Shown piece by piece: positions 1 through 23,618 of a DNA stretch of 48,272 nucleotides (position 1 is its first letter; every line of letters starts with the position of its first letter). The notes below the pieces were generated by a model. The model was not told the origin of the DNA and ran no database searches. It saw only the letters and a program-made list of their open reading frames with translations. The translations under genes and the position numbers were made by a program. This DNA comes from Coemansia sp. RSA 487 (Eukaryota; Kickxellomycota; Kickxellomycetes; Kickxellales; Kickxellaceae). Where the stretch lies: positions 1 through 48,272 of the forward strand of contig JANBRJ010000118.1 in the NCBI GenBank assembly GCA_027577595.1, given 5' to 3'.

Positions 1-1289
1 CCAATGACACACTGAAAGTCGCGTGCCATTGTTGGGAATGGATGGCAGCCGATTGCCGAGCTGACAAGATGGTATGTAGTATCGAGGTTTGAAACCAGGT
101 CACGCATAGCCTCATTGATGGCATCCTTAAGAGTGCACGATCCCTTTGTTACTGGGACAACTTTGCCGCCAAGCGCACGGATACGGAAGACATTGAGCGA
201 CTGGCGGCGTATGTCCTCGGAACCCATGTAGATAATGCACTCGAGCCCGAGCTTGGCGCAGATTGCCGCTGTAGCCACGCCGTGCTGGCCGGCGCCGGAC
301 TCTGCAATGATGCGCGTCTTTCCAAGACGCTTTGCAATGAGGATTTGGCCAACGACATTGTTGATCTTGTGCGAACCAGTGTGGCATAAATCCTCGCGCT
401 TGAGGTAGATCTTGGCGCCACCGCACTTTTCGGTAAGGCGCTCAGCAAAGTGCAGAGGGCTTGGGCGACCCATGTACGGGTAGAAGCTGTAGAACTCTTC
501 CCAGAACGCTGGATCGTTCTTGCATGCGACGTATGTCTTTTCGAGCTCCAAAACGCACTCGTACAGCGCTTCTGCGACGTACAGCCCACCAAAGATGCCA
601 AACTTATCTGGTAGAAGCGTGCTCTTCTCCATCGTGTCCTCGTCGAGCTTGGGCAGAGGAGCTGCACATGGTGTGTTTTCCTTGGCTTTGGCAGACGCTT
701 CTTCAGCATAGTGGCGGATACACTTGGGCCTCCTACCACGTTCAACATTGCGGAAAACAGACTTGAGATAGCTGCCAATGTCTATAGTAAGTGGCAGGTC
801 GGCGTGTTTGTGGACTCTGCTAAGCAGGCGAGTGAGGGTACTTGCGTCAAGCGACTGGCGGACGCTTGCAATTCCAGAGTGCGTGACAAAGTAAACAAGT
901 GAGCCGGCAGTTTGCACACGACGCCTGAAGAGTCCCTTCGACGTCAATGGGGTAATAAGAGGGATGTAGCTGACATAGCCAGTCTGGGTGTTGTTCTTTG
1001 CCAGAATGGCTTTGCCATGCAGAGGTTTGTGGCTGTTGCTTCGATTGAATCGGACCGGAGCCTGGATACCACGCACACGAGTCTCTGAAACAATGCTCTG
1101 CTTTGCATTAGCATCAGCATCAGCATCAGCATCGGATTTGCTTGCGGGTTTATCCACAAGAGGGTTGGTGAATGGAGCGACAAAGTCGAGCATGTCAACA
1201 CCGCCGCGCTCCAGCACAAGCAAGATGTCGATAATCTGGTTGGTCGATGGATATCCAGCAACAAGCGTCTTGGAAATGTGTTCAGTCAT
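1..1289 (-). CDS. TRP5: Tryptophan synthase (TRP5-type alpha-beta fusion), 5' part, degenerate alpha-domain
   Basis: The gene runs off the left edge; about 430 residues are visible in one uninterrupted frame from ATG 1289. Residues ~225-430 are a beta-subunit (TrpB) domain, which condenses indole with serine using [44 protein letters not shown] (PLP lysine ~308), AESGAGQHG (~329-337), RRQSLNVFR. The N-terminal ~195 residues resemble the fungal alpha-domain ([35 protein letters not shown], then [16 protein letters not shown] and ADLPLTID). They are far shorter than the usual ~260. The middle of the barrel is replaced by an (Asp-Ala)4 low-complexity stretch. The catalytic Glu position reads Asp, the loop-6 Thr is lost and the C-terminal phosphate-binding glycines are missing. 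The beta part also differs from the usual consensus (ESGAGQHG for ETGAGQHG, IGCHP for IGPHP). I infer a beta-only or paralogous enzyme. Confidence 0.9.
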
Positions 1290-1328
1290 TATTAATATTA
1301 TTATTATTACTTGTACGTATTATTAGTA
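1290..1328. repeat. ATT/TTA-rich microsatellite
   Basis: An irregular ATT trinucleotide run lies directly upstream of the tryptophan synthase start codon. It is probably part of the leader or promoter. Confidence 0.6.
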
Positions 1329-2579
1329 TTCGAAATATGAGCCGGGAAAAAAGGCGATATTATTTGGCGAGGAAAATGCTCCAAATGTTGCGAGCGCTCA
1401 TCTATGTTTATAACTGAATGCGAAATAATAGAGAACCCTCTAGGATGGTAATGCTACAGCGTTGGCTATAACCTCCAAATGCTTCTCTGACGAAATGCTA
1501 AGCAAGTTCTATTATGATTGCCGCTTTGTAATGCTTGGTGAAGAAGAAAGCGGGAATGTCTGATGCTCTGCCAATTTCCGCTGCAACGCTGGAAAGAAGC
1601 TTTTCTACGATTTGCCATTCTTCGCTTTCACTTTCCGTTTGTGTATCAATTAATTTAAAGCTCTGGTCATTGAACGCGTGCTAAAACGGAATGCAACAAA
1701 AATAGCGTCTCCCTTTTAAGAGAAGCCAGCGCCATATGAACAGGACAACTACGCTTGCAACAGAGGAGCAAAAGTAAGAAAAAACTCCTCTCGTTTTAAA
1801 AGCGTCTGTGGCGAGAAGGGGAGATGTTTCCATACGGGTTGCAAGCAGCAGTTCAGTTCCTCTTTGACAAAAGAGTGGAGGACTAAACGCTTTTATTCAT
1901 GCAAAACGGGAATGGCGTCTTGTAGATATTGTCTCCAGCCAATTAAATATGGACCACCACTACAAATGTTGCAAGTCCGAGAGGCAAAAGCATAGCAGAC
2001 GACGGAGATTGCCTCCATGCAGAAAGACGAAAAACCGTGGATGCAAATCCGCTGCTCAATTCTTGTTTCTAGAGACCTATCCTGCAGAATGCACAATATG
2101 TTGATAGCACTCGCACTTTGCACCACAAAAACAAGATAAACACGTGCTTTGTCTTTTGAAAGTGCGCCAGTTTTACACGGTGCACATGCACTGTGACATG
2201 CAAATGGCCTTTGAGGGATAAAACAGTATCACAGGAATGGCCCTCGTTGGCGCCTCCGACTTTCCTTTTCGTTGGCCTTTTGTAAAAATAAACACAGCTT
2301 TGGATCCCTCTGTTGCGTGAGGCTGTTTGTCTTGCCTGTGCACCGAAATACAGCATCAAGGGTCGCGTGCTTACTCGCGTCTGTATGCAAGCATCATCTG
2401 CTGCTGATCGCCATTGTTTGCAATTTTCGATGCACAGCCTATGCAGCACAAAAATACCTTGGTAAGGTAAATTTCGCCACTTGCCTGCATTTGTTGGCAT
2501 CGATTGCTCTGAATGACGATGCTGGTTTGGCTCTGGTTTGTGGAACAGATGCTTGATCCATTTGAACAGCCGTTTCTGC
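1329..2579. other. Intergenic, no supported gene
   Basis: Upstream region of the tryptophan synthase gene. Several overlapping open frames of up to 175 codons exist on both strands around 1890-2600. None has recognisable motifs and they overlap one another, so I treat them as chance. The last ~125 bases before 2704 resemble the leader of the next F-box-like copy and belong to a duplication listed separately. Confidence 0.5.
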
Positions 2580-2703
2580 ACTTGACTGCATCCCATTGCC
2601 TGCGATTACCATTTTGACTGCACAAAATATGCACGCATTTCAGTCTTTGCGCTGGCATTTAATTTCAGTGCTGAACCACATTTTTGCATTTGTCTCTTTA
2701 ATA
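2580..2703 (+). repeat. Duplicated upstream region of F-box-like copy 1
   Basis: This stretch aligns with 4236-4384 upstream of copy 2. Shared landmarks in the same order are TTG(A)CTGCATCCCATT, TTTGCACA(A)GATATGCA-like text and the ATTTC blocks just before the start codon. The tandem duplication therefore included promoter or leader DNA and not only coding sequence. Similarity is partial, which suggests an old event. Confidence 0.55.
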
Positions 2704-4115
2704 ATGCCCACTTTATCAATCTTTCAGCGCCTGCCGTTGCACATCGCGGAATCGATTGCTTACTACTACACTCATCGTTTTGAAATAACATCTGTTGGAG
2801 CCTGGTGTTTTCCTCAGCACGTTTCTTGCACATTGACGTTGCCGTTTTCATCGAACACTACAATGGCACCAAAGAAGCATCGAAACCCAAGGAGCAATGG
2901 TGGATTGTGCAGCGCATAAGAACGTCAATGCCAGAGATTCAGGAAGTGCACATAGTTGATAGTACGGTTAAGGGGTTTACATCCATGCCCGGAGGTACTG
3001 ATGCACAATGGAACGGGAGCAGCCTATTGCCAACCGTCTTTGAGAGGATTACAAAGGTTAATCTGAGTACAAGCTCAATCCATCTGGACAGAGGCCACTT
3101 GCTTATGCAAAACTGCCTAGGGCTTACCGAGCTGAATTTCGACTCTGTAGAAAACATTAACCTTTTCAAACATATTGTCAAAAAGTCCGCGCATACTTTG
3201 GAGTCATTGGCAGTTCAGCTTTATCCACTACAGTCAGCGGGGGTTCTTGTTTATGACTCCGAGGGCCTGCCGATAGTATACCCACACTTGAAGAAGATCG
3301 TCATAAATGGCAGCTACATCTCACCGCTTGACGAAAAAATCCGAGTTGGCGATTCTGTAGCTCCGTTTCCAGTACTGCGTTGCCTTAGTTGGTGGTCAGA
3401 GTACCCATTCGAGGATGATACGTTGTTCAGAGGGAACAGTGACTCATCGGAATATTTAGATATCGTGATCAGTTCAAATCTGGTTGAAATTTTGCAGAAA
3501 CACAAGGTATTTTCCAATGGTAACTACTCGCAACTTCGTTCCGTAATCCTGCGCAAGCGTTTCAGTTTTGGTCTTCAAAATCCTGGTGATGGCTTATATG
3601 CGAAATTAGCTATTAGCATGATCTCGCCCGCAACTCAATATTTGGCAATGCCAATCCCGGGTACGTACCAGCATATTAGTAGCGCTATTCCTACAAGCTC
3701 GTATATGGCTAATATTCGGATTCTGCGCTTGGATACTACCAGGCTCGCTTTAATGGAAACGTTTAATCTCATAAGGCAGCTGCCGAACATGAAGCAACTT
3801 GAGTGTCTTCCAGGAACTATTGATCCAGAATTGGATGCTGGACAGGATGTAGCATTTATAAACAACCTCTACAGCAAATAATACCCGTTAAGCCACCGTC
3901 TCAGATATCGGATATCGAAAAATGTACTCAGCGAATTCGTAAATCCTGTAGCATTGACGTCAATAGCGCTTGCTATTTTGTGCACTGGCTTTATCTCGGC
4001 AAAACTAACAAAGTATGACAGGAATTGTTGTCTGCGCGAAATAAAGGGCGCTATTGACAGTGGAATTTACGACAGGCATATCGAAAAGCTGGAGCGTCTA
4101 TATAACAGGTTGTAG
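2704..4115 (+). pseudogene. F-box-like family gene, copy 1 (broken)
   Basis: The N-terminus reads MPTLSIFQRLPLHIAE, an F-box-like start typical of a large Kickxellales family. The body (2805-3881) has the family landmarks PFPVLRCLSW, FEDDTLFRGNSDSSEYLDI, LQKHKVF and LIRQLPNMKQLE. Compared with copy 2, ~260 bases are missing just after codon ~28. The join shifts the reading frame so that SARFLHIDVAVFI is no longer in frame with the start. A TAA after ...NNLYSK sits where copy 2 reads a His codon. The frame continues past it with YPLSHRLRYR to a family-like end at 4115. These breaks make a full-length product unlikely. The family presumably supplied substrate-recognition subunits of SCF ubiquitin ligases with LRR-like C-termini, which is an inference. 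Confidence 0.7.
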
Positions 4116-4384
4116 ATCCATCTCTAAATATTATTTTATTCAATTGACGCTGTTGTTATTTACAAGTTGCTTCGCCCAGCAGTCTCAGTGACTTGCGCAA
4201 AACACATATCTCACTTATAACAAAGAAATACATTTGATTGCATCCCATTTGTTGCAAATTGGCACTTTTCTGCACAAGATATGCATTCATTTCTAGTGTC
4301 TAACAAGCGCTTAATTTTTTCTTGAATCCGCCAAAATTTTCTTGTTTAGAGCTTCATTCGTAAAATCGTTGTTTATCGCTAAAT

Positions 4385-6135
4385 ATGCCCGCTTTATCCA
4401 CCTTTCAGCGCCTGCCACTGCACATTGCAGAATTGGTTGCTTACTACTTTAGCCCGCTACTTGAATACAATCCAGAGAAGGTATGGCTTGTGCTGTACGA
4501 CATTAGCCATTCGTGGAGAGCGCTAGCCTTGGAGCATTTTCACAAAAAGGCATCAATAGTAGTATCAGCAACAAGCGGGGAGGACAATCTTGAGTTTCCG
4601 TTTATACCAGGCATAATTAAAGCAAATACTGCGCTATTCAGCTGTGTCAGGGAGGTCGATGTTTTTTTCAAAGACGAATGTGAACTTCCAAGCGTGAAGA
4701 AACGTAACGACTTTTCGTCTACTTGGCCTGAAAGCCTGGTGTTTCCATCAGCACGTTTCTTGAGAATCGATATTGCTGGCTTTATCAAACAGTATGAATC
4801 AATAAACAAAACTCCAGGAACCGAAGAGTATGCGTGGATTACAAAAAGCATAAGAACGTCAATGTCAAAGCTTCAAAAGGTTGATATTCACGACAGCGGA
4901 TTACGGGATTATTTGATGCAACCTATATTCGACAGGACAAAATGGAATGCAGATAACCTTTTGTTGGCTATCCTCAAAAATGCGACTAGCCTGAGTTTCA
5001 GCACAAGACCAATTCATCTAGCAGGTGAGGATTCGTTTATGCAAAGCTGCTCAAAGCTTACTCAGCTGGAATTTATTTAATATGAATAAAAGTATATTAT
5101 AAAAACTGAAGAAGGAACCCCCAGCCGAAAAGATCTGTCTAACTGCGATGACATGGCATGCTGTTAAATAGTGGTAAACATACATCCGGTAATTAGATTT
5201 CGTATCACAATTTAGCTGCATGTTCAACGACGACGGCCTTCTCCACCACATTGCCAAGGAATCAGCACAAACACTGGAGTCGCTGAGAGTTTTGCACCAC
5301 TCTTTGCCGACGATAAAGTCGCTTGTTGTTGATGACAAAGGTCAGCCAATCATATATCCCCCGAATGAAGAAGCTCGACTTTGACATTCCTTCTGGCGGA
5401 AGGCTTGAGAAAAAAATTAAAATCGACAAATCCGTTAAACTATTTCCAGCTCTGCGTTGCCTTACGTGGGGGTCAAAGTATGTATTCAATGATGATATAC
5501 TATTTAGAGGAAACGGTAGTACTCTGGAATATCTAGATATAGAATTTGGCACTGACTTGCTTGATATTTGGCAAAAGCACAAAGTGTTTGCCAGTGGTAA
5601 TTATCCACAACTTTGTTCAGTCAAACTACGCAGAGACTACAGCTCTGTTCACAGCGAACCCGACAATACTTTATTTCTCAAATCTGCTGTTGAACTTATC
5701 TCGCCATCGACACAGTTCTTTTCATTGTCAGAGCTCTGCACTTATGAAGAGATCAGCGATGCCATTCGCACGCGCCCTTGTACAGAAAATATCCAGGATT
5801 TGCGCTTGAAATATGCCGAGCTTAATTTACTTGATACGGTTAATCTCATCAAACAGTTGCCGAATTTGACGAGATTTTTATGCTACTTCAAGGATGATGA
5901 GCTTCGGCTGGAGGATGACATCGGACAAGACAGAGATATTGTGGATGATCTTTATTTCAAGCACTATCCGCTGAGTTATCGCTTCAAACACTGGATACCC
6001 CAATATGCTGATGAGGGATTTGAGAAGCCGGTAGCGCTGGTGTCAATGGTTTTTGCTATTGCCAGCAGATCGTATGACAAATACAGGAAGACAATAGAGC
6101 GTCTATATAAAAAGTCGGTAGATTTTTTTACTTAG
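4385..6135 (+). pseudogene. F-box-like family gene, copy 2 (broken in the middle)
   Basis: The ATG at 4385 opens MPALSTFQRLPLHIAELVAYYF with a following SHSWRALALEHF helix, as expected for the F-box-like end. The first part is open to 5080. About 140 bases of unrelated AT-rich sequence with in-frame stops then interrupt it. The family text resumes near 5221 (FNDDGLLHHIAKESAQTLESL). A run of five C near 5370 then shifts the frame. From 5323 the rest is open: FPALRCLTWGSKYVFNDDILFRGNG, LEYLDI, LIKQLPNLTRF, and HYPLSYRFKHW at the C-terminal end. The ~140 bases are hard to read as an intron because the stop lies before any plausible donor. The single-base shift sits in a homopolymer and could be a sequencing error. 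It is a better-preserved tandem duplicate of copy 1. Confidence 0.65.
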
Positions 6136-7000
6136 CATTAACATTGTTATTTTTAAAATAAGCTACTTTTTTCAGATTTATCATCCAGCACAGCAGGTGG
6201 GAAATTTCAGATTTATCTGGCTAATTTATCTTCAAATTAGTAATATCGCTACTTTGGTCAGTTTGCTACAAAGCGAGTAATAGAAAGCAGTCTGTGACTT
6301 TTGAAACACGGGCAGCAATTTTAATCCGCCTTTTCCAACTAAATTGCTCGGTAATATTACAATTTAGCCATGTCTTCATGCAAAATATTAATTGGCTGTA
6401 ACTTTTACAGGAGAGCTATGACACACGCATGCATTTCTTGCTTATATTAATCGCATGCGTGTGGTTTTTCCCAGCCAGTGATGGTGCAATTTCATATTCT
6501 GCTTGCACACTCCAAGTTTCCGTCACATTTTGTGTCTGCCGTAAAAATAAATGATCCAGCCGTGTATTTGTTTTTTTCCCAAAAAAAACAATGGCTAACC
6601 ATGCAATATTTTAGCATCTGAATTTTACAAACACAGGTCGCATGATTCGGATGGAAACTCCAACGAGACAAAGTAAGCACTTGGACACGATCTGGATAAC
6701 TCTTGTCTAGCATTTTATCCGAGAACGCGTATTCATTTTGAATAGGCGTGGTGATGTGTATTCTTTTTATTCGGATCCAATCAATAAATCAACACTGCAC
6801 TTTTTAAAATAACGTAAGCTAGTGAATGCTTTACATGGCTGTAGTCATCATGCTTCTAAAGTCACAATCAATTCACCAATTACTTTACAATCTCAAGAAT
6901 TTTCAATAATGTCATTGCTGTTACTATAAGGTTGAGAATCTGAATATTGCTCAAATTCATATTTCACTAATCATGTCAAATGTGAGACCGTAGGGAATCC
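6136..7000. other. AT-rich intergenic stretch
   Basis: I see no gene. The only structure noticed is an inverted repeat at 6422-6463, listed separately. A short open frame at 6492-6713 (minus) has no recognisable content. Confidence 0.5.
6422..6463. repeat. 11-bp perfect inverted repeat with 20-base loop
   Basis: The arms CACACGCATGC (6422-6432) and GCATGCGTGTG (6453-6463) pair perfectly. They could form a hairpin in RNA or be two facing protein-binding sites downstream of F-box-like copy 2. No T-run follows directly, and the role is unknown. Confidence 0.5.
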
Positions 7001-7930: not shown

Positions 7931-9434
7931 AATCTCGCTGCAAAAGTTCTTGAGATAGCACTCGTCATGAGTAACTAATTCCATACAACACGGTCCATGT
8001 GGCTACTGCATCACCACTTTTGCCTGGTTCAAAACGTTCATCTGAAAAGAATTTACAAAAGCAGCAGTAAGAAATTGCTTCAAAGATATGTAACAGAAGA
8101 AATTGAAAAGTAAATTGAACGGACTTTATCTAAAAACAGAAACAAAAACAAATTCATCAAAAAAGGAACTAAGGTAGGGCTAGTTATCTTATTTTTAATA
8201 CGTGTGGCATTGCGATTCCCCTTACATTTTCGAAAACGGGACGCAGTCAAGTAGAAATTCGTGCAATCTTGCGAATAAAATTTGTAAACATTTAAGTAGA
8301 TTACTTTTTTTAATTCAAAACAGCAGATACAACTATTACACAGTTTTATATGTCAAATTCCTTGCCGATAAAGTTATAACCAAGCCGGTGGCAAAGTGTC
8401 ACAAGGACTACAAATGACATGCCAGAGTTCACCAAGCTAGCAGTGGCTAAAAAGAAAGCACAAGAAGACATTCTTAATCCTTGAGTTCCTATACAGTATT
8501 CTGGTTGTTGAATTGATATCCGCAAGCATTGTCTATTGTAGGGAGCGCACGAAATAATTTCAAATGGATTTCTCTCTCACTTCCTGCAGTCGACAGTTCT
8601 CTAGCGTTGCATTGCTTTTATGTATATATTGCAAATTTTGGCATTAAACTATGCCAAAGGATTGGCTTCTATTTCTACAGCATTGATTTGATATAACTTA
8701 CCTCTTTTTGGGACAATCCTACGCAATAGGAAATTTAGCACTAAAACAGGTGCTAATTTGTTGGGGTTTCTGTCATGCCAGTTGAGTATCTATCACAGGA
8801 ATATGATATCATATTCTTGATAAGTGATTCCTGAACGTTGTTATGATCCTTGGTGGCGTACGGCTATAAAATAGCCTAACACTCATACCATTTCCTCATG
8901 TCATCCTTAGTTTCTGTCTTAAATATATATTATACTCCTATGTGACAGTCCTAGTGTCTATAGTACAACAGTTTCACAGCTAGAAAATTTGTAATTGTGG
9001 TGGTTGTCCATTGCATAATTTATTGACGGAAGTGGAAATGTTGCTGCCAGAAACACCATTTCCTTTTTTCATTGAACATACTCTGTAACAAGTTGCAGAA
9101 GCTTTATTTTGTCGTGCAGAGACTTTGTCTCTTTCGGGTGTCTTCAAGTTATCTTTTGACAACATTGTTGCTTCGGTGTGGCCAGTTTTTATAAAAAAAT
9201 ACCAGCTTTTGGGGCAATATTTTTAATGCGTTTTGCTCAGCAGACAACCCTTCTCATGCTTCATTTGTAAACAAGTCCTTGCGGAATTGTATTGCCACAA
9301 GATAGGACATTACTGATGTTTATAGCAATTGTGTTTGCTCCATCCCCAATGGCCGTAGATCTACATCAGAACAAGCGGAGCTCATTGCACAAAGCCAAAC
9401 ATTGTACTATCAAACAAGTGAAGGCAAGCTTACT
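7931..9434. other. AT-rich intergenic stretch
   Basis: No gene can be supported. Short open frames at 8202-8417 (plus) and 8980-9165 (minus) carry no recognised motif. A perfect 18-bp palindrome, GAATATGATATCATATTC, lies at 8799-8816. This may be decayed transposon or duplicated-gene DNA. Confidence 0.45.
8799..8816. repeat. Perfect 18-bp palindrome
   Basis: GAATATGATATCATATTC reads identically on both strands. It is AT-rich, so chance is possible. No gene lies close by. Confidence 0.5.
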
Positions 9435-12984: not shown

Positions 12985-13774
12985 TGTTTTATAGAAGACG
13001 ATTATAAATATAAATCAAACAAAAACAAAGAGCAAAAGATTTATAGCAAAATCAATTAGCAATTAGCAAAAACAAAAAGTAAACTCAGCCAAGGAGCAAA
13101 AGGAAGAGCTGCTATAACTGACAACCCAGCCAGCATTCAGCGAACAATGCTTTATGCGCGCTGTTACTCAATGATTGGCCCGATTTATCGACTCGACTCG
13201 ATGAACCGAGCTGACACTAAAACCATGGAAGCGGAACTTTAACCTGTTTTTTTTATGTTGATGTCAATCAGTTATATTGGACACCCGACTCTGCCTCGTG
13301 TGCCATGTGGTTGTTTTCCTTGGTTCTTTCTGGAATTCTCTGGATTTGTGTGAGCACCAAAAAGAAACTGCGGTCTTTGGAATCAAATACTGAATGGTCT
13401 GTCCAATAGAAGCCATAGCACATTGTGCTAGATATCCAAGCTCGTGGTTGTTTTTTTGTTCACTATCTGGATATCAGCTTCTCCGGGCCAAAATCTGGCA
13501 GCTTTGAGCGAAATTTCCAGGACTATATAAAGGCTGGATTTTGGCAAAATTCCCTCACACGACTTTTAGGTCTTTCTTGCTCCTTGTCGCAAAGCATCGT
13601 CCTCCCAATTCTCCAACGTCCCTAGCCTCCTTCAGGTTCCTCCCTGTCTAACATTCGTCAAAAAAAACTGAGCTGGTTTCTCAGATATTTGCGAATAAAC
13701 CTTACGCCTTTTTCACCTTTTTCTTTACAATCTTCTCATCTTTGGCCGCCCCCGAGCTTTTTTTTTATTGAATC
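12985..13774. other. Divergent intergenic region (p24 / AA9 promoters)
   Basis: Contains the upstream regions of two divergent genes. The AA9 side has a clear TATA box and pyrimidine-rich tracts close to the start codon. No ORF is supported. Confidence 0.6.
13524..13532 (+). promoter_or_regulatory. TATA box of the AA9 gene
   Basis: TATATAAAG lies ~250 bases before the AA9 start codon. It is followed by CT-rich sequence typical of a strongly expressed fungal leader. A regulated promoter fits a secreted enzyme. Confidence 0.55.
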
Positions 13775-14770
13775 ATGAAGACCACTGGTGCTTTTGGATC
13801 CGTCATAGCGCTCGTCGCTGGTATTGCGTCCGTTAGCGCACACACGTACCTCAGCCATCTGACGCTGGACGGCATCAAGTACGACGAAGGCGTTTGCATC
13901 CGGCCATACCCAGCGAACCGCAACTTCCCAGTCAAGGACCCATCATCAACTGACCTGACATGCAATGTCGGAGGAGTGACATCGACAGCAGCCAAGACAT
14001 GCCCAGTGGAAGCTGGATCGACCATCACAGTCGAATGGCACCACGACAACGACTCTGCAGGCGACGACATTATCGATGCCAGCCATGAGGGCCCGTGTCT
14101 TGTATACATGGCGCCGCTGGAAACCAACGGCTCCGGCGACGTGTGGTTCAAGATCTTTGAGGACGGATACGATGCTAGCACAAAGAAATGGTGCGTTGAC
14201 AAGATCCGGGCAAGCGGCGGAAAGCTCGATGTCACGTTGCCTGCGGATATCAAGGCTGGCGACTATCTTTTGCGCACAGAAATCATTGCCCTGCACGAAG
14301 CCGATACTGATTACGCTACCAATTCGGCACGTGGTGCGCAGTACTACCCTAACTGTGGACAGATCTCGGTCAGCGGTGGTGGCGATGCTGTGCCTCAAGG
14401 ATATGCGATTCCGGGTATTTACAAGACTGATAGCCCAGGAATTCTGTTCAACCTTTACTCGTCGTATGATAGCTATCCGATTCCGGGGCCTCCTCTGTAT
14501 GTGCCTGGCTCTGGTGCTGGTGCTGGCGATTCTTCAAGCGACGCTGCTCTCGAGGTTTCAACCACTGAAGAGGATAACAGCACTGTCGCTTCTGAGACTT
14601 CAACCGCTGAAGAGTACTCTTCTGCAGCTCCTGAGGCTTCAACCACCGAGGAGCAACAAGACACCGCTACGCCTTCGGCCACAGAGAAAGAGACCGATGT
14701 TCCGACCTCGAGCGCTCCCAGCAGCAACCCTGCCGCCACTACGAGCGTTGCTCCAGGCAAGTGCCACTAA
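13775..14770 (+). CDS. AA9 lytic polysaccharide monooxygenase, secreted
   Basis: A 331-residue precursor. Residues 1-22 are a signal peptide that would be cut to expose His23 (SVSA then HTYLSHLTLDG), the N-terminal half of the copper histidine brace. The second brace histidine is ~104 in DASHEGPC. Gln~189 and Tyr~191 in GAQYYPNC complete the usual active site. Other AA9 landmarks are WFKIFEDGYDASTKKW, LPADIKAGDYLLRTEIIALH and the end of the core PGILFNLY...PIPGPP. Residues ~245-331 are a Ser/Thr/Glu-rich tail with imperfect repeats (EVSTTEED, ETSTAEE, EASTTEE), with no cellulose-binding module and no clear GPI signal. The family oxidatively cleaves cellulose or related glucans outside the cell. 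All key residues are present. Confidence 0.93.
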   Translation: MKTTGAFGSVIALVAGIASVSAHTYLSHLTLDGIKYDEGVCIRPYPANRNFPVKDPSSTDLTCNVGGVTSTAAKTCPVEAGSTITVEWHHDNDSAGDDIIDASHEGPCLVYMAPLETNGSGDVWFKIFEDGYDASTKKWCVDKIRASGGKLDVTLPADIKAGDYLLRTEIIALHEADTDYATNSARGAQYYPNCGQISVSGGGDAVPQGYAIPGIYKTDSPGILFNLYSSYDSYPIPGPPLYVPGSGAGAGDSSSDAALEVSTTEEDNSTVASETSTAEEYSSAAPEASTTEEQQDTATPSATEKETDVPTSSAPSSNPAATTSVAPGKCH

Positions 14771-15144: not shown

Positions 15145-17517
15145 ATGGAATGCATTGGGAACCTTGACCCAATGTATATCGACAACAGAAGCAGCCACCC
15201 AGTAAAACTAAAGCATGTAGGGCGACTACGACCACTATTTAATGAGCACAATGCTGTATACATACCCGACATTTCGCTTGAGCTGTCGGCAGGCTTCCAG
15301 ACGATACGAACGACAGCACGACAGGCCACAGGACGAAGACGAGTTGCGTACCAAGCAGTGGCAACAGCATTGCGGCCCGACATTGTCAATCTCCTCAGAG
15401 ACACGCTTGTGTCCCTGGGACAGTCTCACCACTGGGGGTTTGGTGAAATTGAAAACACCAGACAGCCTCCAGTACCAGAACACTTGGCAGCCTTTATGCA
15501 GATAGATAGCGTGATAGCTGGTGAAGAGAGACGAGGAGAGACAAGCAGTCAAACTATAACGTTGGCATTGAACGGCCCCCGGCACATCGGCAAAAGCCAT
15601 GTACTTTTACAGCTTGCTGCGCTACTTGCATCGGAGCCAAAGGTGGTTGTGGCGTTTATAAGCGACTGCGGCAACCTTCTACTGGACGGGACCGAGCACG
15701 ACCGCTCACGCTACGTGCGGCTGATAGAGTATTTTGCCTGCGTTATGTGCATGCATTCAAAGGCTGAAGAACTGGTCAACAACTGGTACGGGAGCACGCA
15801 GATGAGCACAGCAGCAGACCAGCTGCGGACTGAAACCGATAGCTTCTTCATAGGGCTGCACGGGGTTTGCATGGAAAATAATCTGACACTGGTAGTGATT
15901 CTAGATGGATACGAAAAGATAGCCACAGCACGCGCAGAAGACACAATTCTGACGTTGTCCGACTTGACACATCGCTATGGCGCACATGCTGTGGTTTCTG
16001 CTGACCCCATACATGTGGAGGCGCATGGTCTGCCCTGCACACACCAATGCACCATAGCAGCGCCGCTTGTACAGGAGGAAGCACGTAATGTCTACGCAGC
16101 AACGCTGGGACATTTGCAGATAGACAACGAGGACCTGGCGCTGATTTTCAGTGCTGCGGAGATGCATCCACTGGACATTGTGCGCACGCTTGCGCGGTAC
16201 GAGAACCTTTGCGCCATTTCTACAAATGCTGATCACAGCGCAGCCGTCCGCACAGCAATCCATGAACAGCAAGCCGAGCGGTCCGCACGCACTGCGCAGA
16301 TGCACGCTCACTTTGTGCGTGAAAAGCTGACCGCCACAGCACGCGCCATGACGCCTTCGGAACGCAATAAGATTGTTGGCTCCCATGGCGTCATTGTCAC
16401 GCAGGAGTCCAAGGGACTGGCGCCCATCATGGATGGGATTCGACAGGCTGCATTCACAGTGTACCATCACATTGCGCCCAAGCCAGGCGCCCTTGTCGAC
16501 CCCCAGTTTATAGCAACCATCGCTGGCAAGTGGCAGCGGTGCATACCACCCGCTGCACGCGACGCAATTTACAGTGCGCATTTCAACGGCGCAGTTCAGA
16601 ACCAGTTCAAGTGGGTATACGAATCGGCATCCAACAAGTTCCAGATCGATCCACTGATCCGGTTGCGCTACTTTGACCATGCGCTCCTGGACACTGGGCA
16701 GTGGACGGGTACTGTCATTAACCCGCTGGCTGCCAATATGGCGTGGCACGAGTCGGTATTCTTTGCCGCTGCCAAGCTTCCTGCCCTTTCACGCGATTCG
16801 CGGCTATGCAGCTCGTTCGATGATGCTATTGAGCTGGCTTTTAATTTTATCAACACCAATCGCACACTGCCGCCCATCTTTGTCCCGCGCACGGAGCCAG
16901 ACAAGGCGATGCACTCTATCACTATTCTGCCGCTGCCGCGCGTAAGTATTAATGAACCATGGATTCCCAGCAAAATACAAGATGCTCCAGGATTCCCTGG
17001 TACCTTTATGCTTGCAATTACTCGAACTGACATTTTTTCTGATTCTAAATATGTTCGCTGTGAATACGAGGTTACGTGGTTGGCCAACGATCCTTTGTGC
17101 ATTGCTTCTCAAGCAACAGTGTCCTCCAGCTCCTCCACAACCCACAGAGCGCAATCGGGCTCTGCTGCAAAAGCTGCAGATATGGCTGATCCGTTTGCTC
17201 TTGCGCCTGTCGATGCTATCGACTATGACCGTGAATACGGATCTATTCAAAGCTGGTCGGCAAAGGCCATCCGCTTATTTCCCGATATTCTTCGCCGCTG
17301 CAGCCGTTTGACAGACCTTGCTTACGTCAGTAAGGTGCGTCTTCTTGCGCTTGCCCCGACTGCGCGTATTAATAAGCTTGTACAAAACCGGGATGACCTT
17401 CTTGCTGAATGCGGTATGGACTCAAATGACCCGCTGGCTCAGTCCAAGGATGTCGGTATCTTGTGCATAGATGAAATGTCAGCTCTTGCTACCAGAAATA
17501 TTACGCACTACGTTTAA
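15145..17517 (+). CDS. Large P-loop NTPase, Crinkler/RHS-like (paralogue 1)
   Basis: A 790-residue ORF. It has a Walker A motif GPRHIGKS (~144-151), a following strand with the diagnostic FISDCGNLLLDG (~171-182), a Walker B-like strand LVVILDGYEK (~249-258) and a possible sensor strand VVSADP. The order and the xSDCxxL phrase after the P-loop match the NTPase module of eukaryotic Crinkler (CRN)/RHS-type proteins, and the same layout occurs in the gene at 21017-23233. The C-terminal ~400 residues are unassigned. CRN/RHS proteins often carry a restriction-endonuclease-like domain there, but I cannot point to a catalytic motif. I see no signal peptide or membrane segment. GTAAGT at 16942 may open a 129-base in-frame intron (separate entry). 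An AAA or STAND ATPase of another family remains possible. The ORF looks intact. Confidence 0.7.
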   Translation: MECIGNLDPMYIDNRSSHPVKLKHVGRLRPLFNEHNAVYIPDISLELSAGFQTIRTTARQATGRRRVAYQAVATALRPDIVNLLRDTLVSLGQSHHWGFGEIENTRQPPVPEHLAAFMQIDSVIAGEERRGETSSQTITLALNGPRHIGKSHVLLQLAALLASEPKVVVAFISDCGNLLLDGTEHDRSRYVRLIEYFACVMCMHSKAEELVNNWYGSTQMSTAADQLRTETDSFFIGLHGVCMENNLTLVVILDGYEKIATARAEDTILTLSDLTHRYGAHAVVSADPIHVEAHGLPCTHQCTIAAPLVQEEARNVYAATLGHLQIDNEDLALIFSAAEMHPLDIVRTLARYENLCAISTNADHSAAVRTAIHEQQAERSARTAQMHAHFVREKLTATARAMTPSERNKIVGSHGVIVTQESKGLAPIMDGIRQAAFTVYHHIAPKPGALVDPQFIATIAGKWQRCIPPAARDAIYSAHFNGAVQNQFKWVYESASNKFQIDPLIRLRYFDHALLDTGQWTGTVINPLAANMAWHESVFFAAAKLPALSRDSRLCSSFDDAIELAFNFINTNRTLPPIFVPRTEPDKAMHSITILPLPRVSINEPWIPSKIQDAPGFPGTFMLAITRTDIFSDSKYVRCEYEVTWLANDPLCIASQATVSSSSSTTHRAQSGSAAKAADMADPFALAPVDAIDYDREYGSIQSWSAKAIRLFPDILRRCSRLTDLAYVSKVRLLALAPTARINKLVQNRDDLLAECGMDSNDPLAQSKDVGILCIDEMSALATRNITHYV
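16942..17070 (+). other. Possible in-frame intron in the P-loop NTPase gene
   Basis: A consensus donor GTAAGT occurs exactly at a codon boundary after codon 599. CTGAC followed by a T-run lies ~40 bases before the first downstream AG, at 17069-17070. The interval is 129 bases with no stop, so both retained and spliced forms keep frame and differ by 43 residues. Its codons are more AT-rich than those just before it. Confidence 0.4.
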
Positions 17518-21016: not shown

Positions 21017-23233
21017 TTAGAAGTTCACAACATACGATATGGCCTGCGGCAAATTGTCGTTGATATTCAGCGGCTCGATGGAATAGTTTTTCCCACCGAC
21101 TTGCAGCTCCAGCCGCGAACTGGCGTTATATACAGTACTACGGACAGGCAGGTATATGATGCACCTGGTGCCGTTGTATCTTTTCTGGTTTGTAGTGACG
21201 TCAATGGCGGTGTTGACGCCATGGACGATGCGCGCAATGTAACTGATGCCAGGCCCGCCTACCAGCGCCTGCGCAGCCTCATCGCCATTGGCAGCTTCCT
21301 GGAGCATAGAAACGATCTGTGCGTACTCGCCATTGCTTTCAACCATTGCCGTGACTAGGTGCACAAGGCCGTTCTCGCCCCCGCTTGTAGCGACCACAAA
21401 GTCCAGGCCACCCGAGGAGCTAACGCCGCCCGGTGGGTTGGCATCTGCATGCATCGCCATGCACCCGATGCCCGCCTCAAACGGGACGCCCAGCAACTGG
21501 TGTATCTCTGCCGAAAGCGCATCATCCCTATTCGGAAGAACAACTTGACGCCGCCTGGTTCTGACGCCCGCGTTGTTGAGTGCAGCAAGAGAGTCCTTGG
21601 AAAACACCCACATTAACGTAGCATACGCCAGCTCGTGCATGCCTTGCGCAGTGCCCTGAAGGCCGCTTTGCATTGCGCGGAATGCAGCTTTAGGGGATTT
21701 GAGCTCCTTGTTGAAAAAATACGCGGCAAACCGGGGCGCGACAAACACATGGCGGACGCCTCCGTTGGGTGAGTTGCCTATGGTGTGAATGATCTGGTGG
21801 TGCGAGAGCTCGGGGATTTTGTCAACCCTGTCGGCGCACGAGGCGTTGCCGCCTATATGCAGGCAGTACAAGATACGGAAGATCAGCTCGCGCCTGGTTG
21901 CTTCAACATAGTCTATCAGTTCCTGGCGAACCGCACGCGACGACAAACGGGTTTTAGGATGGTGCTGAGACAACCCGACGATACCAACTAGCCTGGTGGT
22001 AGTCAATGATCCAACAAAGGCGTCTGCTTGGTCCACAAAGTCGTCGTACTCAAAAGCACCCGACGTAGCTGCCAGCAAATCGGTCATTTCGCCCGGATTG
22101 AGCGATGTGCACCGCACAAGCGTATCAAGTATGCGTGCGATATCCTCACCACAATTGCGCTCTATCCTACGGTGTATGAACTCGGGCTGCTGTTGTGAGG
22201 AGTTCCGCATCAGCGCGAGGGCTTCAGGTCTGGAGAACCACGGTGTTACTGTGCGCTCATATATGCTCATGTCGTCAGGAATGAAGTTGGCCCTGGCCGC
22301 CAGCACGACGAAAATAGAGCTGCAGCAAGCGACTGCATACTCCACTATGCTTCGAAGCATCTTGGCTGTTCCTGACTTTTCAGGAGTCAATCCACTGCTA
22401 TTGCACAGGGCATCGTAGTTATCGATGCACAGGAGCAAGCGTACCGCCTTCTCTGGAATTTCCTCCTCCTCCTCATCCTCTTCTTCTTCTTCTCCCCCCT
22501 CTTCTTCTTCATTTGGTGGTTGCAAGCCCTGGCCCCTTGGGCAGCGACAAAGTCGGCTTAGGCTCTTGAGGAGGCTCTGGCCAAGCGTGGCCAAGTCCGA
22601 CAGCTCTCTTTGTTCAGCCTTGAGCAAAGTAAGCGCATGCCAGAGCGTAGAAGAAGAAGAGGAGGAGGAGGAGGAGGAGGAGTCATTCATGTCTGCGGCA
22701 AACGCAAGTAGCACGGCTTTCCAAAAGTAACCAAGCAGCTGTTGGGGCGTGGTGCCGCTGTTCAGCCACTCGTTGCAGTCGCCTAGATAAACAACACGAG
22801 TGCTAGGGCATCCATGGACTGTGCGCAGCGCAAGCTCACGCAGTATGTGGCTCTTTCCGCTACGTACGCACCCGGTCAGATATAGCGCCGACCGGTGCGA
22901 TACTGCTCTACCAACAGCCGGCAATGCATCATCAGTATTGCCGGGTACTTTGAGCTGTTTGTCGCTGTTAATGGAAAGCGGTAGCGGGTATTTCATATAT
23001 GTGCTTATTTCGGAAAACAGCCCGGTCGTTATGCATGGCCGCAGAAGAAGTTTCATTCGACAACCTGCCAGACTGGTGCTGTTGAGTGTAGCTACATCGA
23101 CTGTGTCTATGACTACAGGTTCCTTGGACTCAAACAAGCCGTTGACTTGTGCGTCTGCTGGATCGCTTAGCTCATTGTACAGCCTGACTGCTGCACGCTG
23201 CATGTGCTCTTGTGGCTGTTCATTGCTCAGCAT
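21017..23233 (-). CDS. Large P-loop NTPase, Crinkler/RHS-like (paralogue 2)
   Basis: A 738-residue ORF. Walker A is GCVRSGKS (~121-128, in LYLTGCVRSGKSHILRELA). It is followed by STRVVYLGDCNEWLNS (~144-159), whose xYxxDCxEW phrase is typical of fungal Crinkler/RHS-like NTPases. Next come AVLLAFAADM, Walker B LLLCIDNYDAL (~266-276) and GLTPEK (~281-286). The latter two resemble the IDxxNGLTPE segment of that class. Insertions of ten serines (~185-195) and a long Glu/Asp run (~242-260) are encoded by trinucleotide repeats. The C-terminal half ends with GLDFVVATSG...LVHLVTAMVES, which could be an altered nuclease-like strand pair but has no convincing catalytic signature. It is convergent with the similar gene at 15145. 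GC content is higher than in the intervening island. Function is inferred only at fold level. Confidence 0.72.
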   Translation of the reverse strand: MLSNEQPQEHMQRAAVRLYNELSDPADAQVNGLFESKEPVVIDTVDVATLNSTSLAGCRMKLLLRPCITTGLFSEISTYMKYPLPLSINSDKQLKVPGNTDDALPAVGRAVSHRSALYLTGCVRSGKSHILRELALRTVHGCPSTRVVYLGDCNEWLNSGTTPQQLLGYFWKAVLLAFAADMNDSSSSSSSSSSSTLWHALTLLKAEQRELSDLATLGQSLLKSLSRLCRCPRGQGLQPPNEEEEGGEEEEEDEEEEEIPEKAVRLLLCIDNYDALCNSSGLTPEKSGTAKMLRSIVEYAVACCSSIFVVLAARANFIPDDMSIYERTVTPWFSRPEALALMRNSSQQQPEFIHRRIERNCGEDIARILDTLVRCTSLNPGEMTDLLAATSGAFEYDDFVDQADAFVGSLTTTRLVGIVGLSQHHPKTRLSSRAVRQELIDYVEATRRELIFRILYCLHIGGNASCADRVDKIPELSHHQIIHTIGNSPNGGVRHVFVAPRFAAYFFNKELKSPKAAFRAMQSGLQGTAQGMHELAYATLMWVFSKDSLAALNNAGVRTRRRQVVLPNRDDALSAEIHQLLGVPFEAGIGCMAMHADANPPGGVSSSGGLDFVVATSGGENGLVHLVTAMVESNGEYAQIVSMLQEAANGDEAAQALVGGPGISYIARIVHGVNTAIDVTTNQKRYNGTRCIIYLPVRSTVYNASSRLELQVGGKNYSIEPLNINDNLPQAISYVVNF
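22448..22685. repeat. Trinucleotide repeats encoding Glu and Ser runs
   Basis: Runs of CTC/CTT and GAG/GAA triplets lie within the NTPase gene at ~22458-22510 and ~22650-22683. They encode acidic and serine runs and are likely length-variable between strains. Confidence 0.8.
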
Positions 23234-23618
23234 ATTATCAAACTCATCAATATAGCGGCTGCAAAGTTTGTGGTAAAGCCCAATGATATAATAAAAGGAG
23301 TAATGCTATAACTAATAACTAATAACTAATACCAAATGCAAAATACAAAACACAGTAAAGGAAAGAAAGGAAGAAAGGAAGAAAGGAAGAAAGGAAGAAA
23401 GGAAGAAACAGAGCGCAAAATTCTCCACGTATCCCTTTCATCTTCTCTAATAGCAGCCCTCCAGAAAACACTCAAGCTAAACACGTAGCGCATGAGAAAA
23501 TAAGAAAATAAGAAATGAAAAAGAACATCACGTTACCAAAACTTGCATTGATTTCATGAAAGCTGAATTAAACTCCGACAAAGATCAGGCAAGCCCAAAG
23601 CAAAAAATATGTAGTATA
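23234..23618. other. Intergenic with GGAAGAAA tandem repeat
   Basis: Between the NTPase gene and the J-protein gene. About six copies of the 8-bp unit GGAAGAAA lie at 23361-23407. No gene. Confidence 0.75.

Follow-up and report, generated by a model that had tools for sequence, protein, structure and literature searches.

At the start of a 48,272-nucleotide stretch of Coemansia sp. RSA 487 DNA, here called the window (contig C118), lies a copy of the tryptophan synthase gene TRP5 whose two fused halves evolve differently. We consider it probable that a duplicate of TRP5 gave rise to a TrpB paralogue that stands by itself and whose active site was re-specified, and that the window copy belongs to one of two lineages of this paralogue that are still constrained. 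In the history that we propose, the bifunctional fungal gene would have been duplicated, the TrpA (α) half of the duplicate would have been lost through deletions, and an internal ATG would have arisen at the start of the TrpB (β) half. The product would be a free-standing TrpB-like PLP enzyme with an active site altered ahead of the spread of copies to several loci. In the copies on C118 and C62 the β half is still under purifying selection, and the other copies are decaying. The relevant features of the window are the following:

1..6884, no strand: part of a duplicated block, also present on C14, C130 and C173, with shorter pieces on C62, C96 and C111 (sequence comparison)
3..632, minus strand: TrpB-like domain, first 210 residues, from the internal ATG to the contig start (TIGR00263, purifying selection)
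297..302, minus strand: Glu109 kept (302–300) and Thr110 changed to Ser (299–297) (sequence and comparison with bacterial TrpB)
366..368, minus strand: PLP-binding lysine, which we take to be Lys87 by Salmonella TrpB numbering (sequence; Lys in 80 of 80 bacterial TrpB)
630..632, minus strand: derived internal start codon, context ACGATGG (sequence comparison with C75, C62 and C14)
633..1289, minus strand: decayed α (TrpA) remnant of 219 codons, counted from the first ATG (partial PF00290 match, alignment to intact TRP5, apparently neutral evolution)
1110..1133, minus strand: (Asp-Ala)4 run within the α remnant (sequence)
1290..2342, no strand: flank common to C118 and C14, 92.4% identical, used as neutral yardstick (sequence comparison)

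The gene occupies one open frame on the minus strand (1319–3; 439 codons, first ATG at 1289), in which β is fused in frame behind the α remnant. Pfam recognizes both PF00290 (48.3 bits, split over two stretches) and PF00291 (83.4 bits) there, so the frame is far beyond chance. The first-pass annotation was right in describing a collapsed α domain fused to β in a single open frame. The 3' part exits the contig at its start and β is halted at residue 210, so that the window carries only half a β chain; the copy presumably continues into a full β past that point. TIGR00263 gave 294.5 bits on this half chain, cut by the contig end (profile positions 2–203 of 385; cut-off 392.45). The window protein matches the intact TRP5 of the same genome in 270 of 472 alignment columns (57%), with 73% identity over window residues 169–429.

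The intact αβ gene lies on C75 (C75:72112–74232) and encodes 706 amino acids from its ATG in a single uninterrupted frame of 722 codons. A second, complete TRP5, for which the first-pass annotation had proposed a search, is therefore present, and because of it tryptophan auxotrophy is not expected. A genome search with PF00290 listed this gene as the one intact match (302.9 bits); the other matches listed, on C118 and C62, are partial. Searching with the window protein gave at least six further partial copies (C14, C62, C96, C130, C173 and C145); a weak match on C15 (27% identity) is one of the other PLP enzymes from the PF00291 search. The C145 copy consists of α only. Of the five others that hold β, four (C14, C96, C130 and C173) are broken or heavily decayed: they carry stops or deletions, or have lost Lys87 or Glu109. 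Six of the seven partial copies (C118, C14, C62, C96, C130 and C173) lie in a common duplicated block, up to ~10 kb long, which on C14 and C96 includes a conserved ORF, the C14 version of which matches a PD-(D/E)XK nuclease. Judged from coordinates, each of the seven partial copies is no more than about 6 kb from a contig end and has the 3' side of the gene outwards, and the intact C75 gene likewise points to its nearer contig end, 13 kb off. This clustering may be telomere-related or may just mark where repeats broke the assembly. No telomere array (four TTAGGG units, no mismatch) was found in the 17.8 Mb of genome sequence, so the positions cannot be called subtelomeric.

Two patterns among the copies cut across their trees. 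The same TAG codon is present in the α part of C14 (7339-7341) and C62 (2191-2193), with CAG in C118 and C145, although the trees place C62 outside the C118/C14 group; either recurrent change or gene conversion could account for this. The β frame of C14, C130 and C173 stops some residues before that of C62 and C96, which looks like a common deletion and conflicts with the copy tree.

A complete β chain of 400 residues is encoded on C62 (C62:1968–766, minus strand) and scores 555 bits with TIGR00263, above the cut-off. In C62 and C14 a stop codon separates the α remnant from β. Since no ATG lies between this upstream stop and the sequence MEKS in C62, its β, if translated from an ATG, starts at MEKS. 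The same ATG occurs at window position 632, where A occupies −3 and G occupies +4, and is absent at that place in C75; it is the first in-frame ATG past the upstream stop in both C62 and C14. β may thus be translated on its own in C118, as C62 would have to do. Because both starts (1289 and 632) are open in C118, production of a fusion protein from the window copy is also conceivable.

To describe the β active site, we used as reference 80 bacterial TrpB loci, a narrow sample that is largely Verrucomicrobia by title, with 113 invariant sites. Sites were counted from Lys87, assuming one later gap relative to Salmonella TrpB, by which R379 corresponds to number 378 in our script. At the invariant sites C75 departs three times and C62 11 times (one change common with C75, ten with other copies), and C118 departs at seven of the 62 sites that it covers (one common with C75, six from the family's ten). 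The ten family changes are P18A, T110S, W177L, Y186H, G189S, V201A, S301A, D305N, A348S and R379N. All covering copies carry them, with two exceptions: C96 has Val at 301, and C14 has His at 305. Residue 305, a catalytic Asp in TrpB, is accordingly Asn or His in all five covering copies (Asn in C62, C96, C130 and C173), and the window ends before it. Of the 195 sites that 90% or more of the bacterial proteins conserve, C62 keeps 156, C75 172 and C118 95 of the 114 covered; changes specific to C62 at such sites include G53S and G127S. Both C118 and C62 keep Lys87, His86, the indole-activating Glu109, Gln114, His115, Arg141 and Lys167, and C62 also keeps GGGSN, Glu350 and Ser377. The first-pass annotation had spoken of an apparently working β domain with the PLP lysine and the GAGQHG loop. 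Both are indeed retained, but it overlooked T110S, by which the loop reads ESGAGQHG rather than ETGAGQHG, and that only half of the β chain is in the window.

We assume that T110, G189 and D305 are substrate-touching positions in TrpB. The changes T110S, G189S, S301A, D305N and R379N, together with Lys87, Glu109, Arg141 and Ser377 kept in C62, would suggest that β no longer simply makes tryptophan but uses another amino-acid donor or carries out another reaction. It is possible, and we propose it tentatively, that the free-standing β has a new reaction or donor, with D305N, T110S, G189S, R379N and others fixed before the copies spread and then held by selection in two lineages while α decayed, beside an intact parent gene.

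We think it rather unlikely that β is a normal additional TrpB that uses L-serine to salvage free indole, as bacterial TrpB2 or stand-alone TrpB1 do. The strong TIGR00263 match of β and the catalytic residues retained in C62 (Lys87, Glu109, Gln114, His115, Arg141, GGGSN, Glu350 and Ser377) are what such an enzyme would have. However, the ten common changes, D305N, T110S and G189S included, fall where all 80 bacterial TrpB are invariant. Two TrpB-like models, TIGR01415 and NF009057, which we take to be TrpB2 models, fall short of their cut-offs on the C62 β (161.1 vs 518.85 and 163.5 vs 366, respectively). Furthermore, PMC11917138 ties a set of six residues to stand-alone activity in LBCA and Pelodictyon luteolum TrpB, and β matches this set at two of six positions, as does C75, when it is read by eye off the LBCA alignment with an inferred numbering offset. 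A stand-alone TrpB signature was rejected for the copies on this count, and the ten changes together with the two matches make plain indole salvage less likely than a re-specified enzyme.

Substitution patterns point to continuing constraint on β in two copies. In a seven-copy β alignment, ω was 0.146 on the internal, C118 and C62 branches (LR 60.8, p 6e-15 vs ω = 1) and 0.70 for the other terminal copies, itself slightly under 1 (p 0.045). Considered as single branches in the seven-taxon fit, C118 (p 0.0025) and C62 (p 2e-5) were each below ω 1. In a four-taxon fit of the first half of β, C118 was below 1 (p 1e-4) and C62 not significantly so (p 0.46); in the second half of β C62 was below 1 (p 0.013). 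In the topology-free comparison of C118 with C62, 22.5 of the β differences are synonymous and 9.5 are not (ω 0.112); in α, 18.0 are synonymous and 45.0 are not (α vs β, Fisher p 3.5e-4). By codon position, the β differences of this pair are distributed 6/2/24.

Parsimony reconstruction rooted on C62 assigns N14 S4 in α (2 ambiguous excluded) and N1 S8 in β to the C118 branch (Fisher p 0.0027), and the C14 branch has N15 S6 in α and N21 S4 in β plus two stop-making changes; the two branches differ in their β N/S counts (Fisher p 1.3e-4). With C75 as outgroup, the C118 branch has N13 S3 in α (10 ambiguous excluded) and N3 S7 in β (2 ambiguous excluded). Tree supports are modest (β 70–93, α 55–78), and gene conversion among copies may affect these comparisons. 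Codon GC3 gave no separation of live from dead copies. On these substitution counts, β is under purifying selection on the C118 and C62 lineages. Together with the common changed active site, this supports the idea, already put forward in the first-pass annotation, that β works without α or that the protein is a paralogue which has taken on a new substrate.

The same data bear on the view that all copies other than C75, C118 and C62 included, are pseudogenes, with the β constraint an old signal or chance. We regard this as unlikely. The state of C14, C96, C130 and C173 and the truncation of the window copy by the contig end fit such a view, and lack of coding constraint, the mark of a pseudogene, was indeed found for α. 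It was not found for β on the C118 and C62 branches, where ω contrasts with that of the other terminal copies. An old signal is at odds with constraint measured on changes that followed the C118/C14/C62 split, after which the β of C118 and C14 diverged so sharply in their counts. In addition, C118 and C62 show no losses beyond the common changes among the 113 invariant sites, whereas C14 has nine outside the family-wide set, of which two (109 and 235) also occur in C96.

A further reading takes β as a pseudoenzyme like plant TSB-like proteins, docking on the α domain of TRP5 so that free indole is released. Plant TSB-like pseudoenzymes free indole from tryptophan synthase, and in PMC12727527 Asp305 is described as salt-bridged to an Arg, stabilizing the active state. 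Residue 305 is altered in both systems, to Glu in the plant proteins and to Asn here, which makes the reading possible. Eight Kickxellales species are reported as makers of indole-3-acetic acid-derived lindolins (PMC10478498), which would also be in its favor. Nevertheless, we give this reading a low probability. Glu109, absent in plant TSB-like proteins, is kept in C118 and C62. The plant change from Asp305 to Glu was found in none of the five copies covering the site, and Asn would be expected not to maintain the salt bridge with Arg that Glu is proposed to lock in the plant proteins. Moreover, the sole intact α found in the genome has its own β fused to it.

The α half of the window copy is missing about 67 of ~285 residues relative to C75, as counted from alignments. 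The N-terminus is shorter by 15, the region behind the PFT block by 4 and the linker by 4; a further 24 are lost around GIDGYIVVDLPPEE and 20 around GFGVSTHEHF…ADGVV. The first-pass estimate that a third of the barrel is gone was correct as to missing segments and too high in extent, the loss being nearer a quarter. The residue names αGlu49 and loop-6 Thr are those of TrpA. Alignment to C75 bears out the earlier statement that the catalytic Glu is Asp (VIEL to MLDF), that the loop-6 Thr is lost (GVTG to GIAS) and that a (DA)4 run is present; C14 has five DA units at that place. The Asp60 position is retained. An intact TrpA barrel with catalytic Glu49 and Asp60, as in a bifunctional TRP5, is thus not found in the window copy. 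Because the α deletions of C118 recur in C14, and in C62 and C145 wherever these overlap, the collapse of α predates the spread of the copies. Stops break the α remnant of C14 and that of C62; in C145, two stop codons fall within the columns aligned to C118.

In a codon likelihood model that took in C75, C118, C14 and C62, α ω on the C62, internal and C118 branches was 1.1, no different from ω = 1 (LR 0.11). Between C118 and C14, differences amount to 59/657 in α (9.0%), 80/1047 in the flank (7.6%) and 36/632 in β (5.7%). NG86 estimates for α were 0.98 for C118–C14, 0.77 for both C118–C62 and C14–C62, and 0.48 for C118–C145 (79 codons); for C62 they were limited to homologous columns, the sequence upstream of its remnant being unrelated. 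The lower of these values would speak against strict neutrality. A strong transition excess biases NG86 ω downwards, and over window 1-2342 C118 and C14 differ by 152 transitions (38 in CpG context) and 23 transversions, an excess that is mutational bias. From the codon model and the flank comparison, the α remnant appears to evolve neutrally, outside selection.

The first-pass annotation had argued from the open frame that this is not simple decay. This argument did not hold: under neutral simulation the α frame stays open in 67, 54, 32 and 16% of runs at 20, 30, 60 and 100 changes, respectively. For the C118 branch, 18 α changes were assigned within the stretch that C62 covers. The open α frame of the window copy can be chance.

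It is very improbable that the shortened α is a folded regulatory shell under selection, retained to activate β, as had also been suggested. The frame of C118 is open across α and β, and TrpA chains still head the Foldseek matches of the α model (best E 1.4e-4), in which helices and strands alternate. Yet the fold modeling proposed earlier, an AlphaFold2 run of the remnant with seven bacterial TrpA, gave no confident barrel (pLDDT 51.6, pTM 0.51), against pLDDT 88.4 and pTM 0.89 for an intact bacterial TrpA modeled as control with the other six in an alignment of similar depth. Among the 50 matches listed, TM to TrpA was 0.25–0.31 and rmsd 8.9–14.7 Å. The neutral, flank-like divergence of α and the stops in C14 and C62 also contradict a retained shell.

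That a normal TRP5 merely looks truncated through assembly error or an unrecognized intron is hardly credible: the gene does exit at a contig end, but the same deletions are seen in the copies named above, the intact TRP5 is one frame without interruption, and the missing blocks, which the first-pass annotation had named as a possible refutation if present as an α exon, were not found in a tblastn search of C118:1–9000 (best block match E 0.14 over 13 residues), so that an unrecognized exon was rejected and the description stands.

Beyond the TRP5 copy, the window contains several other features. Two related ORFs of the 'MPALSTFQRLPLHIAE' type lie in tandem at 2784-3881 and 4364-6135, with DNA 71% identical in part; Pfam gave no match on either, and the C14 block has one such ORF. 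A dispersed repeat of ~134 bases at 5076-5209, with ~30 other places among the matches listed, interrupts an ORF that is intact in C14 (C14:9080-10828) and looks like a small non-autonomous transposon. Another dispersed repeat, of ~200 bases, lies at 8771-8970 and has ~16 other places at 76–93% identity among the matches listed. An AA9 lytic polysaccharide monooxygenase gene is found at 13772-14770 (192 bits). Of two large ORFs, that at 15145-17517 is without Pfam match and that at 21017-23305 has weak AAA_22 and NACHT matches, below cut-off.

Among the open-access titles and abstract beginnings listed, no fungal β-only TRP5 paralogue is named, and no paper on tryptophan synthase D305N was found in the open-access literature. 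The closest known systems are three related kinds of enzyme. With the fungal bifunctional TRP5 represented by C75, the window copy shares domain order, the single open frame and the identity over residues 169–429 given above. It differs in an α that is about a quarter shorter, with catalytic residues lost and apparently neutral evolution, in the changed β active site and in the internal ATG. Stand-alone TrpB1 of P. luteolum and bacterial TrpB2 (PMC11917138) resemble it as TrpB proteins working without a partner α, which here is presumed; they are set apart by the six stand-alone residues, of which β has two here, as in C75, and by the TrpB2 models, whose cut-offs it misses. Plant TSB-like proteins (PMC12727527) are likewise TrpB paralogues that depart at 305 and derive from duplication beside a normal tryptophan synthase. 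Glu109, the Asn at 305 and an origin from a fused gene distinguish the fungal copies, which offer a counterpart for comparison with these plant pseudoenzymes. The case shows a fused enzyme un-fusing, with a neutral half and a constrained half within the same reading frame. If our reading is true, TrpB would have been re-specified by nature beside an intact parent gene, and C62:1968–766 (minus strand) provides a complete sequence that can be assayed for a new β-substitution reaction. The parts are of known kinds; what appears new is their combination, a fused enzyme with one half neutral and the other constrained and probably re-specified.
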